This document shows, piece after piece, positions 38,811 to 43,051 of a stretch of DNA of 43,051 nucleotides. The DNA lies in the NCBI GenBank assembly GCA_018333895.1, contig JAGXSJ010000042.1:1-43051 (forward strand), read 5' to 3'. Position 1 is the stretch's first letter, and every line of letters begins with the position of its first letter. The notes under the pieces were generated by a model. That model ran no database searches. It worked only from the letters and a program-made list of their open reading frames with translations, and was not told where the DNA came from. Made by a program: the position numbers and the translations under genes. This stretch comes from Truepera sp. GTDB taxonomy: Bacteria > Deinococcota > Deinococci > Deinococcales > Trueperaceae.

Positions 38811-39676
38811 CGCTCCGCCAAGGCGTCAAGTGCCAGGTAGGCGGCCCCTTCGGCGGTAGGGTGCCGCACCGCAACGCGCCGCCCTTCAAACCACGCGAGC
38901 AGCTCAAGCTCGCCCTCGACGCGCCGCGCGTGCGCCCCCAGCGCCAGTTGACAGCCCGCCTGCATAGCTGCCATCAGACCGCGCTCGGCGGCGATGGCGG
39001 GATAGCCGCGTGCGTCGTGCAGCTCGGTAAGCAGCGCTGCTAGCGCCTCATCGTCCCGCCGGAGCTCGAGGGCTAACGCCCCCTGGGCCGGGGCCGGTAT
39101 TAGCACCTCGGGCGCCAGCACCACCAGCGCTAGATCCGGCAGCTCGAGCGCCAGGCGCTGCAAGCCTGCCGCAGCCAGCACGATGGCGTGATAGTGGCCG
39201 TCGCGCAGCTTCTGGATGCGGGTCAGCACGTTGCCGCGCAGCTCTGTGAGTACCAGATCAGGCCGCAGCGCCCGCAGCTGGGCCTGGCGGCGGATCGCGC
39301 TGGTGCCCACCACCGCGCCGCGCTTCAGAGGGAGAGGCGTAAACCCTGCATCGTAAAACTCGGGGCGGATTACGAGCACCTCGCGCGGATCGGCGCGCTC
39401 CGGCACCGCCGCGACCTCCAGGCCGGGGGTCTGCTGGCTGGGGAGGTCTTTGTAGGAATGCACTGCCAGATCGGCACGACCGGCTAAGAGCGCCTCCTGT
39501 ACCGCTTTGGTAAAGAAGCCCGTCCCCGCCATGGCGGCAAAGGGCTGTTGCTCGCGGTCGCCCTGGGTTTCGACGAGGACCAGTTCAACCCGCTCTCCTA
39601 ACGCTGCGAGTCGCCCCTCGACCCAGTGGGCCTGCTTGATGGCCAGCGCACTCCCGCGCGTCGCTAACCGGATCAC
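38807..39676 (-). CDS. hemC: Hydroxymethylbilane synthase (porphobilinogen deaminase)
   Basis: Polymerises four porphobilinogens on a dipyrromethane cofactor. The 289-residue product starts IRLATRGSALAIKQ and has FTKAVQEALL, AVHSYKDLP, VVGTSAIRRQAQL, LRGNVLTRIQKL, and the cofactor-attaching Cys242 in AGCQLALGAHA. The open frame runs back to 39877, but GTG39676 gives the conserved N-terminus and overlaps the hemA stop (GTGA). It is complete and coupled to both neighbours. Confidence 0.96.
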   Translation of the reverse strand: MIRLATRGSALAIKQAHWVEGRLAALGERVELVLVETQGDREQQPFAAMAGTGFFTKAVQEALLAGRADLAVHSYKDLPSQQTPGLEVAAVPERADPREVLVIRPEFYDAGFTPLPLKRGAVVGTSAIRRQAQLRALRPDLVLTELRGNVLTRIQKLRDGHYHAIVLAAAGLQRLALELPDLALVVLAPEVLIPAPAQGALALELRRDDEALAALLTELHDARGYPAIAAERGLMAAMQAGCQLALGAHARRVEGELELLAWFEGRRVAVRHPTAEGAAYLALDALAER

Positions 39677-40812
39677 GCCAGCCCCGCTTCGCTTAAAAAG
39701 GTCTGCGCCGCCTCCAGGCCGTGCGCCCTGGCCAGCGCCCGCAAGCCCTTGATCGGGATGTGGGCGAACCTGTGCGCCAACCGCGCGGCGTCTTCTGGCG
39801 GGAGCGACTCGGCAATAGTGGCCAGATATTGGTCGCGCAGCTTTTTGATCGACGGGCCAAGCTGCCGCTCGAGCCACTCCAGCAGCGCCTGCTCGAGCTC
39901 TTCATGCACCAGCTGCTCGGCCAGGGCCAGCCGGTCGGTTAAGGTCGCCCGCCGCCGTGCCCCAGCCGCTTGCAGGCTGTCAATATCGAGCACCCTCACG
40001 CCATGCCGCTCCGCCGCGCCCACGGCGACGTTGCGCGGCACGCCCAGATCGACGATGATTTTAAGCCCGGCAAGCCTGTCGAGCATCGCGCCGTCGATCA
40101 GCTCCCCGACTGGCGTTGCGCAGACTAGCCCCGCCACGCGCGGCGGACTCTCCTGAAACGCTTGCAGCACCAGGCAGCTCCCGCCGCACTCCGCCGCCAG
40201 CCGCGCCGCCCGCTCCAGGCTCCGGTTGACCACAATCAGCTTAACCGCCTCGGCCGCCAGCGCTTTAACCACCAGGGCTCCAACCTCGCCAGCCCCCAGA
40301 ATCGCCACCGTGGCCTGCGGCGGGAGGGCCGCTAGCAGCTCCGGTTTAGCCAGGCTAAAGAGCGAGGTGTTTAAGGGGGCCAGCGGCACCTCGCGCCTGA
40401 TCCGCTTGGCGATGCGCAGCGCGGTGTGAAAGGCAAAGGCCGTGAGCGGCCCCACCGCGTTATCGGCCTGGGCGGCAGCGAACGCCTCGCGCACCTGTTT
40501 CATGATCTGGTCTTCGCCGAGGTTAAGTGAATCGAGCGAGGCAGCAATGCGCGCGAGCTGCTCCATGGCCGCCTCACCCTGATAGGCGTAAGGTTGCGCC
40601 GTGACCCCCCGTGGCGTCAACCGGCGGCGCAGCTCAGTCAGCGATAACCCTTCAGGGAGGCTGGCGACCACGTCCCAGCGGTTGCAGGTGCTAAGGAGCA
40701 CCGCATCCGGCAACCCCAGCGAGGCACGCCCAGGAAAGGCCGCCTGCCACCGCTCGAGGGCCGCCGCACCGCCTCGGCGGTGCGACACGCCGATAAGCAC
40801 CAGGCGTTCCAC
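39673..40812 (-). CDS. hemA: Glutamyl-tRNA reductase
   Basis: First committed enzyme of the C5 pathway; reduces glutamyl-tRNA to glutamate-1-semialdehyde with NADPH. The 379-residue product has LIGVSHR at the start, the catalytic Cys43 in LLSTCNRWDV, SLNLGEDQIMKQVREAF, the NADPH site ATVAILGAGEVG near residue 165, and the C-terminal dimerisation helix region. The partner hemL is not in the window. It is the first gene of hemA-C-D-B-kinase-regulator. TATCAT at 40821-40826 ends 8 nt before GTG40812, so a very short leader is likely. Confidence 0.95.
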   Translation of the reverse strand: MERLVLIGVSHRRGGAAALERWQAAFPGRASLGLPDAVLLSTCNRWDVVASLPEGLSLTELRRRLTPRGVTAQPYAYQGEAAMEQLARIAASLDSLNLGEDQIMKQVREAFAAAQADNAVGPLTAFAFHTALRIAKRIRREVPLAPLNTSLFSLAKPELLAALPPQATVAILGAGEVGALVVKALAAEAVKLIVVNRSLERAARLAAECGGSCLVLQAFQESPPRVAGLVCATPVGELIDGAMLDRLAGLKIIVDLGVPRNVAVGAAERHGVRVLDIDSLQAAGARRRATLTDRLALAEQLVHEELEQALLEWLERQLGPSIKKLRDQYLATIAESLPPEDAARLAHRFAHIPIKGLRALARAHGLEAAQTFLSEAGLA

Positions 40813-40820
40813 AACTTTTT

Positions 40821-40826
40821 ATGATA
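40821..40826 (-). promoter_or_regulatory. -10 element TATCAT for the hemA operon
   Basis: On the minus strand TATCAT lies 8 nt upstream of the hemA GTG. There is no Shine-Dalgarno and no good -35 at 17 nt. It would drive hemA, C, D, B and the two-component pair. Confidence 0.4.
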
Positions 40827-40913
40827 GGCGCTAAAGTGTGGTGGAGGTGTCACGGAAGTGTCACCCCCAGGTAGATCATGTAGCCAGGACTCAAGTAGTT
40901 CAGTGAGGTTGCC

Positions 40914-42428
40914 ATGCAGTCCAAGCCCATCGCTCTAGCCCTAGACCTGCTGCACCAGGGGCAGGAGGGGGAGGCCCGGCGGGTGCTATCGGGCTTTGAG
41001 CCCGGTTCCTTGGAGGAGGAAGCCGAAAGCCTGGCCCTGCAGGGCTTCGTGGCCGCACGGCGGGGTGACCTTCAGGCCTACCGCACCCTGACCCTGGAGG
41101 CAGCCCGCCGGGCCGAAACTCCCCTTACCCTCTATCACCGGGGCCTGGCCCTGCCACCCCGGGAGGGCCTCGCCGTCTTGGAGGCAGCCCTGCGCCTCTT
41201 CGACGTAGCTCCAGAAGACACGGCCCGGCTCCACCTGGCCCTGGCTGTGACCTTAGAGCGTCTGGGCCGTCAGGAGGCTCTGGCCCACGCTGCGCTAGCG
41301 CGGCTTCAAGCCCCTTCCCCCTGGACGCTGCTCCACCACCTGCGCCTGGAGCTGCTCTTTGGCAGGATGGCGTTAGAAGAGGTAGAACAGCTGGCCGTCC
41401 GGCTGCTCCCCCATCCCACTAGGGGAGTGCGCCTACTGGCGGGGCACACCCTGGTGCTTCTCCACCTTTTGCAGAATGAGCGGGAGCAAGCTGGAGAGGT
41501 ACTGTTGGCTCTCCTCCCCAGTTGTGGCCCCGGCAGTTTTCCCAGCTTTCTGGTCGAGGGCGTTCTGGCCCTGCAAGGGCGGCCCGAGGTCCAACTTCTC
41601 CTGGAGAGTGCAGCGGCCTTTGTACGGACTAGGGAAGACTACGGCTTGCAGTGCCTGGCCGAGGGCCTTCACCTTTTTCCTCAGGTTGCAGCCGAGCCCT
41701 TCCTGCAGGAGGCCGCGCTACAGTTACAAGACCATGATGAGCTGCAAGCCCTGCGGGCCCAGGCTCACCTGGCAGCCCTGCTGGGCCAGCCGCTAGCCGA
41801 ACCCTACCGAGCTCTGGCCAAGGCCCTGCGCCCAGAGGCCAGGCCACTTTTTCTACCCCCCGGCCTGCTGGAGTCCCGGCCCTCCCTGCAGGTCCTGGGG
41901 GAAGGGCGCTTGCTGAGCTTTCGCCACCTGCGCTTGCGGGGCCTGGAACTTTTGGTGCTCCTGCTGGCCCGGCGTGAGGGTTGGCCGGGAACAGCCCTGG
42001 CCCAGGCCCTCTACGGCGAGGCTAACCTCCCGGCCCTCAGGGTAGAGGTGTACCGGCTGCGGGCGGCGGGGCTGGAGGTGCGCGCCCGCCCCTACCGGCT
42101 CCTCACCCCCCTGGATGCCGACTTTCTGGAGCTTAGGGAAGTCTTGAAGTTCGGCAACCTCCACCGCGCCGTAGAGCTCTACCAGGGCCCACTCCTGCCC
42201 CAGAGCCAGGCCCCCGGGATCGAGGCCCTCCGCTTCGAGCTGGAGGAGGCCGTGAGGTCTAGGGTGCTGCGCGCCACAGACCCTGGCCTCCTTTATGCGC
42301 TGGCGCAGCGCCTGGAGGACGATCTGGAGCTCTGGGAGGCCACGCTGGAAACCCTCCCGCCCCAGGATGCCCGCTACCCAGCAACCCTGGCCTGGGTGCG
42401 GCGGCTCAGGGCCGAGTATCTGGCTTAG
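40914..42428 (+). CDS. TPR-type protein with BTAD/SARP-like C-terminal region, probable transcriptional regulator
   Basis: A 504-residue, very Leu/Ala/Glu-rich protein. Residues 1-330 are paired helices like TPR repeats (EARRVLSGFEP, GFVAARRGDLQAYRTL, LALAVTLERLGRQEALAHAAL). From about 335, LGEGRLLSFRHLRLRGLELLVLLLARREGWPGTALAQALYG resembles the winged-helix start of SARP/BTAD regulators, followed by helices with DFLELREVLKFGNLHRAVELYQGPLLP, typical BTAD text. The order (TPR first, winged helix and BTAD after) is less usual. GAGG precedes ATG40914. Codon use is dominated by CTG/CTC/GCC, unlike the window, suggesting transfer from a Thermus-like genome. Confidence 0.72.
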   Translation: MQSKPIALALDLLHQGQEGEARRVLSGFEPGSLEEEAESLALQGFVAARRGDLQAYRTLTLEAARRAETPLTLYHRGLALPPREGLAVLEAALRLFDVAPEDTARLHLALAVTLERLGRQEALAHAALARLQAPSPWTLLHHLRLELLFGRMALEEVEQLAVRLLPHPTRGVRLLAGHTLVLLHLLQNEREQAGEVLLALLPSCGPGSFPSFLVEGVLALQGRPEVQLLLESAAAFVRTREDYGLQCLAEGLHLFPQVAAEPFLQEAALQLQDHDELQALRAQAHLAALLGQPLAEPYRALAKALRPEARPLFLPPGLLESRPSLQVLGEGRLLSFRHLRLRGLELLVLLLARREGWPGTALAQALYGEANLPALRVEVYRLRAAGLEVRARPYRLLTPLDADFLELREVLKFGNLHRAVELYQGPLLPQSQAPGIEALRFELEEAVRSRVLRATDPGLLYALAQRLEDDLELWEATLETLPPQDARYPATLAWVRRLRAEYLA

Positions 42429-42543
42429 CGTGGTGCCCCTGCTGGGCGCTGGGGGGCAGGCAGTCGGGACTCTTGCAGGCGTAGGTGGGGCTTGGTGCTA
42501 AGGCCAGCAGCCCCAGGAGCAGCAGGATCAAAACCTTGCGCAT
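42406..42543 (-). CDS. Small secreted Cys-containing peptide (45 aa)
   Basis: A short frame on the minus strand: a textbook signal peptide (MRK, then a Leu-rich core to APSPTYA) and a 23-residue mature part (CKSPDCLPPSAQQGHHAK...) with two Cys and two His. TACGCT lies 6 nt before ATG42543, the leaderless geometry used elsewhere here. The last codons overlap the 3' end of the regulator gene. A signal peptide arising by chance is unlikely but possible in this Leu-rich segment. Function is unknown; location beside a TPR regulator allows, but does not prove, a signalling role. Confidence 0.5.
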   Translation of the reverse strand: MRKVLILLLLGLLALAPSPTYACKSPDCLPPSAQQGHHAKPDTRP

Positions 42544-42549
42544 ACTTTA

Positions 42550-42555
42550 AGCGTA
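42550..42555 (-). promoter_or_regulatory. -10 element TACGCT for the small peptide, leaderless geometry
   Basis: On the minus strand TACGCT lies 6 nt from ATG42543. It is close to the direct repeats at 42564-42613, which could act on both directions. Confidence 0.4.
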
Positions 42556-42563
42556 GCCGGAAG

Positions 42564-42613
42564 AAGGTTACCTGGCGGGGCCAAAAGTTACCTTGAAGCT
42601 AAAAAAGATTACC
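42564..42613 (+). promoter_or_regulatory. Three direct repeats AARRTTACC, probable activator sites
   Basis: AAGGTTACC (42564), AAAGTTACC (42584) and AAGATTACC (42605) are spaced 20 and 21 bp start to start, two helical turns. An inverted GGTAACC follows at 42631-42637, next to the -10 box. SARP/BTAD regulators are known to bind short direct repeats near their target promoters. Confidence 0.7.
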
Positions 42614-42644
42614 GCAATAAGCGCCGGATTGGTAACCTAGCCCG

Positions 42645-42653
42645 TGCTAGGGT
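42645..42653 (+). promoter_or_regulatory. Extended -10 element TGCTAGGGT for the beta-propeller gene
   Basis: TGC precedes TAGGGT. The -35 region (CGGATT) is poor, as expected for an activator-dependent promoter. About 25 nt of leader follow, with AGGAGGG at 42668-42674. Confidence 0.55.
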
Positions 42654-42680
42654 GAGCCTGTCCCGAAAGGAGGGATCCAC

Positions 42681-43051
42681 ATGATCGCAGTGCAAGAAGT
42701 CAAGGTCGGCAGCCGGACGCGGCAGGTTCAGGTGAGGCCCTTTGCGTGGAATCTCCATGCTCCAACCCATATGGAGTGGACCTTGGACGGGCGGCTCCTG
42801 GTGGTCGAGCGGACCACCGGCAAGGTTAAGGACGCTACCCAGGGTGGCGACATGGCAGAGGCTAAGCCCTTCGCCTGGGGCCTCGAGGGGCCCGCTAGCA
42901 TGTGCCCTCTGCCAGATGGACGGGTACTGCTCTCAGAGTTCTGGAGCGGCCGGATTATAGACATATCACAAGGTGGTGACGCTGTCTTGATGCCTGTTTT
43001 TGCCGACGGCCTGATACGACCCTACGGCCTGACGTGTCTGCTGGGCCGCGA
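42681..43051 (+). CDS. Beta-propeller repeat protein, N-terminal part (3' end outside window)
   Basis: The frame runs open from ATG42681 (AGGAGGG 6 nt upstream) through the last base. The visible 123 residues contain a repeated motif: PFAWNLHAPTHMEWTLDGRLLVVERTTGKV and PFAWGLEGPASMCPLPDGRVLLSEFWSGRI, then PVFADGLIRPYGLT. A period of about 45 residues with DGR and E.. turns is typical of NHL/SMP-30-like six-bladed propellers, as also seen in ScyD/ScyE-type proteins. There is no signal peptide. Enzymatic or binding role cannot be told. It is the likely target of the direct-repeat promoter. Confidence 0.7.
   Translation, partial: MIAVQEVKVGSRTRQVQVRPFAWNLHAPTHMEWTLDGRLLVVERTTGKVKDATQGGDMAEAKPFAWGLEGPASMCPLPDGRVLLSEFWSGRIIDISQGGDAVLMPVFADGLIRPYGLTCLLGR

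Follow-up and report, generated by a model that had tools for sequence, protein, structure and literature searches.

A SARP-like TPR regulator and an overlapping exported-type peptide form a candidate chemical-signalling system in Thermus and its relatives

The analysed stretch of DNA, hereafter the window, is the whole of contig C42 (43,051 bp) of a 2.84 Mb genome in 178 contigs (98% complete, 8% contamination). Its right end carries a regulator gene, a small peptide ORF on the opposite strand and the start of a beta-propeller-like gene (Table 1). All three had been named in the initial annotation, and all three were recovered as open reading frames at this locus; the initial observation holds and gains strength from the data below.

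Table 1. Positions of the regulator, the peptide, the cargo gene and the putative promoter elements in the window.
Feature	Position	Strand	Basis or remark
Regulator, 504 aa	40914-42428	+	ORF; homologues at 46-57% identity
Regulator N-terminus, helical repeats, TPR-like	~aa 1-312		Structure model; TPR matches in relatives
Regulator C-terminus, wHTH plus helical, SARP/BTAD-like domain	~aa 322-502		Profile comparison
Peptide precursor, 45 aa	42406-42543	-	ORF; its final 23 bases lie within the 3' end of the regulator gene
Putative peptide -10-like element TACGCT	42550-42555	-	Ends 6 bases before the ATG
Site 1, GGTTACC on + (GGTAACC on -)	42566-42572	-	Promoter-proximal for the peptide
Site 2, AGTTACC	42586-42592	+	20 bp from site 1
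Site 3, GATTACC	42607-42613	+	21 bp from site 2
Site 4, GGTAACC	42631-42637	+	24 bp from site 3; promoter-proximal for the cargo gene
Putative cargo -10-like element TAGGGT	42648-42653	+	Sequence pattern
Beta-propeller-like protein start, 123 aa	42681-43051 (ORF to 43049)	+	Cut by the contig end

Structure modelling of the regulator (mean pLDDT 61.6, N-terminal part of low confidence) returned TPR superhelices among the structural matches. HMM searches detected no TPR in the window regulator and single weak matches in its family (TPR_2 in 3 of 21 members), while the relative in genome G012 matched TPR_12 with an E-value of 4.6e-12. Pfam BTAD (PF03704) was found in 0 of 21 family members by hmmscan, and an HMM scan of the 21 members for the OmpR-type wHTH (PF00486) gave no match either; two remote homologues matched the latter weakly (E 7e-4 and 2.6e-3). 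Alignment of the regulator C-terminus with four PF03704-positive proteins using hhalign yielded a probability of 89 (P 2.3e-6, 132 columns). A PDB search by sequence found nothing better than PhoB/response-regulator chains at E 0.2-0.7, and structure comparison of the C-terminal part gave helical look-alikes only (Z <8), with no SARP chain among the matches listed, and is not diagnostic in either direction. The kinship of the regulator to SARPs is likely a remote one. The initial designation as a TPR/BTAD-like regulator thus stands at the level of modelled helical repeats and of profile-level kinship to the SARP wHTH-BTAD part, and not as a Pfam BTAD assignment. As neither sequence nor model contains a membrane part, the regulator is presumably cytoplasmic.

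Full-length relatives at the identities given in Table 1 were found in many genomes of family f4, in which 39 of 50 genomes contained some regulator match, many of them full-length. Named carriers are Thermus thermophilus SG0.5JP17-16 (plasmid pTHTHE1601) and JL-18 (plasmid pTTJL1802), and the Thermaceae MAG S21_6 carries another relative. The 36 relatives searched in the window's own family, f1, gave mostly C-terminal matches, the best being that of G012 (39% over most of the length). Open frames of the relatives' regulators mostly span 485-544 aa. Loci were selected as matches spanning most of the regulator, excluding shorter pieces and also L122, in which the C-terminus is missing. The resulting 45 entries comprise 39 loci (of 40), a second L106 copy, L036, L045, the window, L133 and L134. 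They are not independent, since L106 contributes two copies and L100, L101, L102, L105 and L134 share an identical core and cassette; at a 95% identity cut, 24 entries with a core remain. The labels Thermus-like and Meiothermus-like used below were inferred from named relatives and cover most of the 45 loci.

The peptide precursor combines a basic start, a strong hydrophobic stretch and an AxA-like site before a cysteine, and cleavage is predicted between TYA and C, ahead of the conserved core CKSPDCLPPSA (C-x4-C-x-P-P). Short opposite-strand tblastn matches to peptide residues 21-33 were found at the regulator ends of many loci. A core of the form C-x4-C-x(1-2)-[P/S]-P was present in 38 of the 45 regulator entries, compared with 11 of 316 other gene ends at the same loci. 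The seven entries without it are L036 and L107 (contig end or transposase gene), L118, L119, L120, L132 and L124, the last of which has a shortened form, C-x4-C-P-P; in L123 and L130 the peptide frame has no start codon. Besides CKSPDCLPP of the window, core types include CTRPDCLPP, CTHPDCPPP, CARPDCFPP, CWDPNCVPP, CWSPDCFPP, CLAPHCPPP, CLDLGCWPP, CFRSECMPP and CNNPQCVSP. Precursors of relatives measure ~32-83 aa and vary in length behind the core, with the ORF stopping immediately after it in L093, L094 and the L125 group. Leader and cleavage calls stem from an in-house hydropathy test and not from SignalP; this test called an exported-type ORF at 40 of 69 ends when regulators of every kind were pooled, and also at 61 of 361 control gene ends.

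Substitution analysis outside the regulator overlap revealed dN/dS values of 0.42 and 0.35 for the peptide frame in two groups of relatives (pS 0.41/pN 0.21 and pS 0.33/pN 0.14), whereas the two shifted frames of the same stretch gave ratios of 0.99-1.78; the peptide frame is under purifying selection. Peptide and regulator distances were correlated (Mantel r 0.62; 0 of 5,000 permutations that high). Receptor-ligand co-variation was not evident from the partial correlations, which were 0.20 for the repeat domain and 0.24 for the DNA-binding domain. Peptide distance thus tracks both halves of the regulator equally, which argues against a tight receptor-ligand match.

The three repeats 20-21 bp apart that had been described between the peptide and propeller genes were found at 42566, 42586 and 42607; a fourth site, at 42631, had been missed. 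Across both strands of the 137-bp intergenic region, RRTTACC occurs 4 times versus 0.11 expected, a count that none of 5,000 dinucleotide shuffles reached. The two outer sites each precede a -10-like element by 16 bases, site 1 facing the peptide and site 4 the propeller gene. The corresponding pattern, GTWAC-N11-TAnnnT, was observed twice in the intergenic region (0.009 expected, P 0.0002), and these copies, at 42632 (+) and 42571 (-), are the only ones in the 43,051-bp window. The arrangement points to a pair of facing promoters in which a GTWACC site takes the place of the -35 element. The earlier remark that the promoter lacks a good -35 therefore agrees with our data in that a GTWACC site stands in its place, and has to be amended in that there are two facing promoters and not a single one. 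With its -10 ending 6 bases ahead of the ATG, the peptide gene is predicted to yield a leaderless transcript.

This geometry recurs among the relatives. In the interval 60-360 bp behind the regulator, 36 loci contain 137 GTWAC copies versus 14.9 expected. Under a fixed start rule, 32 of 38 entries have a GTWAC exactly 28 bases ahead of the peptide start codon; counted by distinct contexts that have a start codon, the figure is 24 of 28. The background is 34 of 7,384 ATGs, with the family itself counted. The right-hand promoter follows the strict pattern in 31 of 43 entries and a looser one in 37. Repeat spacing, 20/21/24 in the window, amounts to 20-24 at most Meiothermus-like loci, to 10-11, 19-20 and ~35 at Thermus-like loci and to 11 in G012. 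Extra promoter copies precede further cassettes in L095, L096, L103, L125 and L126. A scan of the window's whole genome showed no enrichment of the promoter pattern (30 sites versus 34 for a reversed-pattern control) and no further regulon. A pattern match on contig C40 was considered as a regulon member and rejected, as peptide and array are both absent there.

The window propeller fragment is 77% identical to Thermus-family propellers over the first 123 aa, to which this comparison is confined. Among the 45 entries, the gene that immediately follows the promoter on the right is of the radical-SAM type in 14 (some of them fragments) and a propeller or propeller fragment in 12, followed by a CGKYRTSC protein (5), a small SCPC precursor (4), a LanM fragment (1) and a QueC-like gene (1); none was recognised in 8. 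Many cassettes also include a transporter (ABC or MFS), and HMM scans of the relatives' cassettes detected Radical_SAM/SPASM, PqqD, DUF4135 (the LanM dehydratase half), QueC, MFS and ABC transporters. The closest NCBIfam models to the radical-SAM cargo, TIGR04463, StsB and WgkB, all scored below their cut-offs. Transposases and truncated copies are common at the family loci. The core CWDPNCVPP adjoins five different first genes and CTHPDCPPP three; the occurrence of an identical core beside up to five unlike first genes indicates that the peptide belongs to the regulator and not to the maturase. The cargo is exchangeable, and the propeller is no fixed part of the unit. Of the four components initially joined into one possible unit, regulator, peptide and repeats are thus mostly kept together in homologues, and the propeller is one of several cargos.

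Several cassettes show further features. In L130 (58-1311) and L126 (10310-11275), an unrelated lipoprotein-like sequence continues from the opening 25-30 residues of the propeller (EVQEVKVGGRTRRVHVRPFAW), a fusion indicative of cassette swapping at the end nearest the promoter. L109 (4762-5064), L115 (8434-9758) and L116 (9448-9705) encode small proteins with a CPC plus G/T-A/V-G-I ending, followed by a 326-aa family of no assigned kind and ABC transporter genes; they possibly represent an undescribed RiPP-like class. In L108 (4579-5364), L112 (7377-8042) and L106, a protein family with a CGKYRTSCWYCP motif adjoins an ABC exporter, and searches of the L108 member against Pfam and NCBIfam gave no match.

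The occurrence of homologous regulators without peptide or repeats had been named as evidence that would speak against the unit. Most full-length homologues retain both, so that the core idea of a regulator-peptide unit with spaced repeats withstood this check; most distant relatives of the regulator C-terminus lack both. The peptide as a general trait of wHTH-BTAD regulators was likewise considered and rejected, as, among the regulator ends re-scanned, the small (258-318 aa) and most of the large (819-881 aa) distant ones are without it. Exceptionally, a small convergent ORF of exported type does occur at L042, L046 (= L181) and L165, and L040 is a further exception. In the window's genome, L165 (259-1551 and ~1550-1800; G000:C89) pairs a paralogous wHTH-BTAD regulator of 825 aa with a convergent exported-type ORF of 44 aa (MKRFLWLLFTLSLLGLALAEKSHPPGKR...), which follows immediately on a 430-aa radical-SAM-like gene; C120 carries a matching regulator. 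In L042 (4405-4602; G000:C48, also of the window's genome), an 836-aa regulator is overlapped by a small exported-type ORF ending in SADGGDSGSGNGTDGLPPPAIIALR, and the GTWAC array is absent. L046 (4027-10099) of Calidithermus chliarophilus combines a larger relative, an 822-aa regulator, and a convergent exported-type ORF with a lanthipeptide synthetase of class III/IV type (RamC_N, Pkinase and LANC_like by HMM). L040 (3922-5631; G012, family f1) features a 569-aa TPR regulator (586-aa open frame), four GTTAC copies, one every 11 bp, within 210 bp after it, and an opposite-strand 44-aa ORF with a single cysteine (RVACPNPIQDALLR), a possible further peptide type.

Regarding the origin of the unit, hemA and the regulator gene (together 39673-42428) lie 100 bp apart and differ in family affinity: hemA is f1-like (63%), as expected for the window's own family, and the regulator is Thermaceae-like. 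This mismatch suggests either that the unit was transferred horizontally into this lineage or that the contig is misjoined from two sources. A viral origin was also considered and rejected, as the viral contigs searched contained no relative and just BTAD tails appeared in two Acinetobacter phage records.

The genes, their conservation, the selection on the peptide frame, the sites, the promoter geometry and the exchange of cargo form the observational basis on which we propose that a TPR regulator with a SARP-like C-terminus, probably controlled by its own exported peptide, switches on cassettes for peptide products. The small peptide would be exported via Sec and cleaved ahead of its first cysteine; the mature form, starting with C-x4-C-x-P-P, would return into the cell and bind to the regulator's TPR-like repeats. 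The C-terminal winged-helix/BTAD-like domain would then activate, rather than repress, the two facing promoters from the GTWACC sites, presumably in a density-dependent manner. One promoter would yield more peptide from a leaderless mRNA, resulting in positive feedback, and the other would turn on the exchangeable cassette, which in relatives often comprises a RiPP-type maturase or small precursor plus an ABC/MFS exporter and in the window the propeller gene, the functions of these cargos being predicted ones. That the mature peptide acts as ligand for the regulator's TPR part, and that the pair auto-induces and drives the cassettes, is the reading towards which we lean; with similar, moderate confidence we regard the unit as a two-gene communication system at the head of a cargo cassette.

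The peptide might instead be a product and not a signal, namely a secreted cysteine peptide (bacteriocin, metal-binding or RiPP precursor) made and modified with assistance from the cargo, the regulator answering another cue. The two cysteines of the peptide fit such a role, as do neighbouring radical-SAM maturases of peptide-modifying families and, in the window's genome, the radical-SAM-like gene directly upstream of the opposite-strand peptide of a larger paralogous regulator. However, one core occurs beside unrelated cargos, some cassettes bring likely precursors of their own (L109, L115 and L116, ending in SCPC or CPC plus G/T-A/V-G-I; L128_2), and the peptide gene overlaps the regulator gene and not the maturase gene; we consider a product role unlikely. 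The exported-type leader and the invariant cysteine pair would also suit an exported co-regulator or sensor part that is retained in membrane or periplasm and does not diffuse as a signal, such as a sensor of envelope or redox state acting through C-x4-C, and so would the variable precursor length behind the core. Such a retained peptide could hardly reach a regulator that has no membrane part and is presumably cytoplasmic, and the ORFs of L093, L094 and the L125 group stop immediately after the core, as expected for a small released ligand; we consider this explanation improbable.

A third reading dispenses with signalling altogether: the regulator would be a SARP-like activator of the usual cluster-situated kind, acting on its operator, and the ORF on the opposite strand a by-product. 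While the promoter layout is indeed SARP-like and GC-rich DNA readily yields antisense ORFs (61 of 361 controls), a by-product would explain neither the purifying selection specific to the peptide frame nor the fixed start-codon geometry nor the frequency of the core (38 of 45 versus 11 of 316 control gene ends), and we regard it as very improbable.

Comparison of the signalling unit with known systems revealed likeness in two directions. RRNPP transcription factors carry an N-terminal XRE-type HTH, whereas here the N-terminus is modelled as repeats and the DNA-binding part is a C-terminal wHTH/BTAD-like domain. As in the RRNPP group (Rap, Rgg, NprR, PlcR, PrgX, AimR, ComR), of which several members control neighbouring genes, a small propeptide gene, here with a predicted Sec-type leader, adjoins the gene of a ~500-aa repeat protein, here a putative and presumably cytoplasmic receptor. 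Five criteria given in PMC10075063 describe RRNPP pairs as a propeptide of 10-100 aa that is Sec-secreted, a receptor of 250-500 aa with HMM-detectable TPRs, and adjacent genes. The window peptide (45 aa) falls within this size range, the two genes overlap in the window in a conserved layout, and the regulator exceeds the receptor range by 4 residues. Unlike RRNPP systems, which PMC9765709 and PMC10075063 place in Firmicutes, the present unit is a convergent overlapping pair with a predicted leaderless peptide mRNA and a cysteine-pair core, found in Thermaceae and relatives. The predicted order of an OmpR-like wHTH followed by a helical domain, and the putative control of natural-product genes, recall SARPs (AfsR, DnrI, EmbR type). 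According to PMC10936776, the 3' repeat in SARP promoters lies 8 bp from the -10 with repeats 11 or 22 bp apart, which is approximated here by a -10 that lies 9 bp after GTAACCT in the window and by a spacing of 20/21/24 in the window and of 10-11 and 19-24 in most relatives. In SARPs, however, the SARP domain is N-terminal, whereas here the SARP-like part is C-terminal and the TPR-like repeats are N-terminal; the 504 aa also include no NOD/ATPase part and no Pfam BTAD match, and the regulator has an exported peptide partner. An established parallel is the control of RaS-RiPPs by Rgg/SHP in streptococci (PMC13361665), where a peptide-gated regulator heads radical-SAM RiPP operons; gating is putative in our case, the regulator and peptide families are unrelated, and here a single regulator-peptide type heads many unlike cargos. 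On balance, the best reading is a unit that is RRNPP-like in plan and SARP-like in promoter and is not filed as RRNPP.

No description of such a regulator-peptide pair in Thermus, Meiothermus or Deinococcota was found in the open full-text literature, and the pair looks like an undescribed bacterial chemical-signalling system. Whether Deinococcota possess here a new peptide quorum-sensing class distinct from the RRNPP families, in which exported C-x4-C-x-P-P peptides of several sequence types gate SARP-like TPR receptors, with a self-reinforcing leaderless promoter and swappable RiPP-like weapon or signal cassettes on chromosomes and plasmids, we judge to be evenly balanced. Cytoplasmic TPR receptors that serve in peptide quorum sensing have been described mostly in Firmicutes. 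If our reading is true, Thermus and its relatives would have such a design by convergence or distant kinship, which would show that a SARP-like activator can be converted into a pheromone receptor. The predicted ligand of ~11 residues is synthesisable, and plasmid-borne copies are present in Thermus thermophilus JL-18 and SG0.5JP17-16. The unit would offer a handle on cell-density control in a thermophile that serves as a laboratory model, and its propeller, CGKYRTSC and SCPCGxGI cassettes would point to uncharted RiPP-like products.
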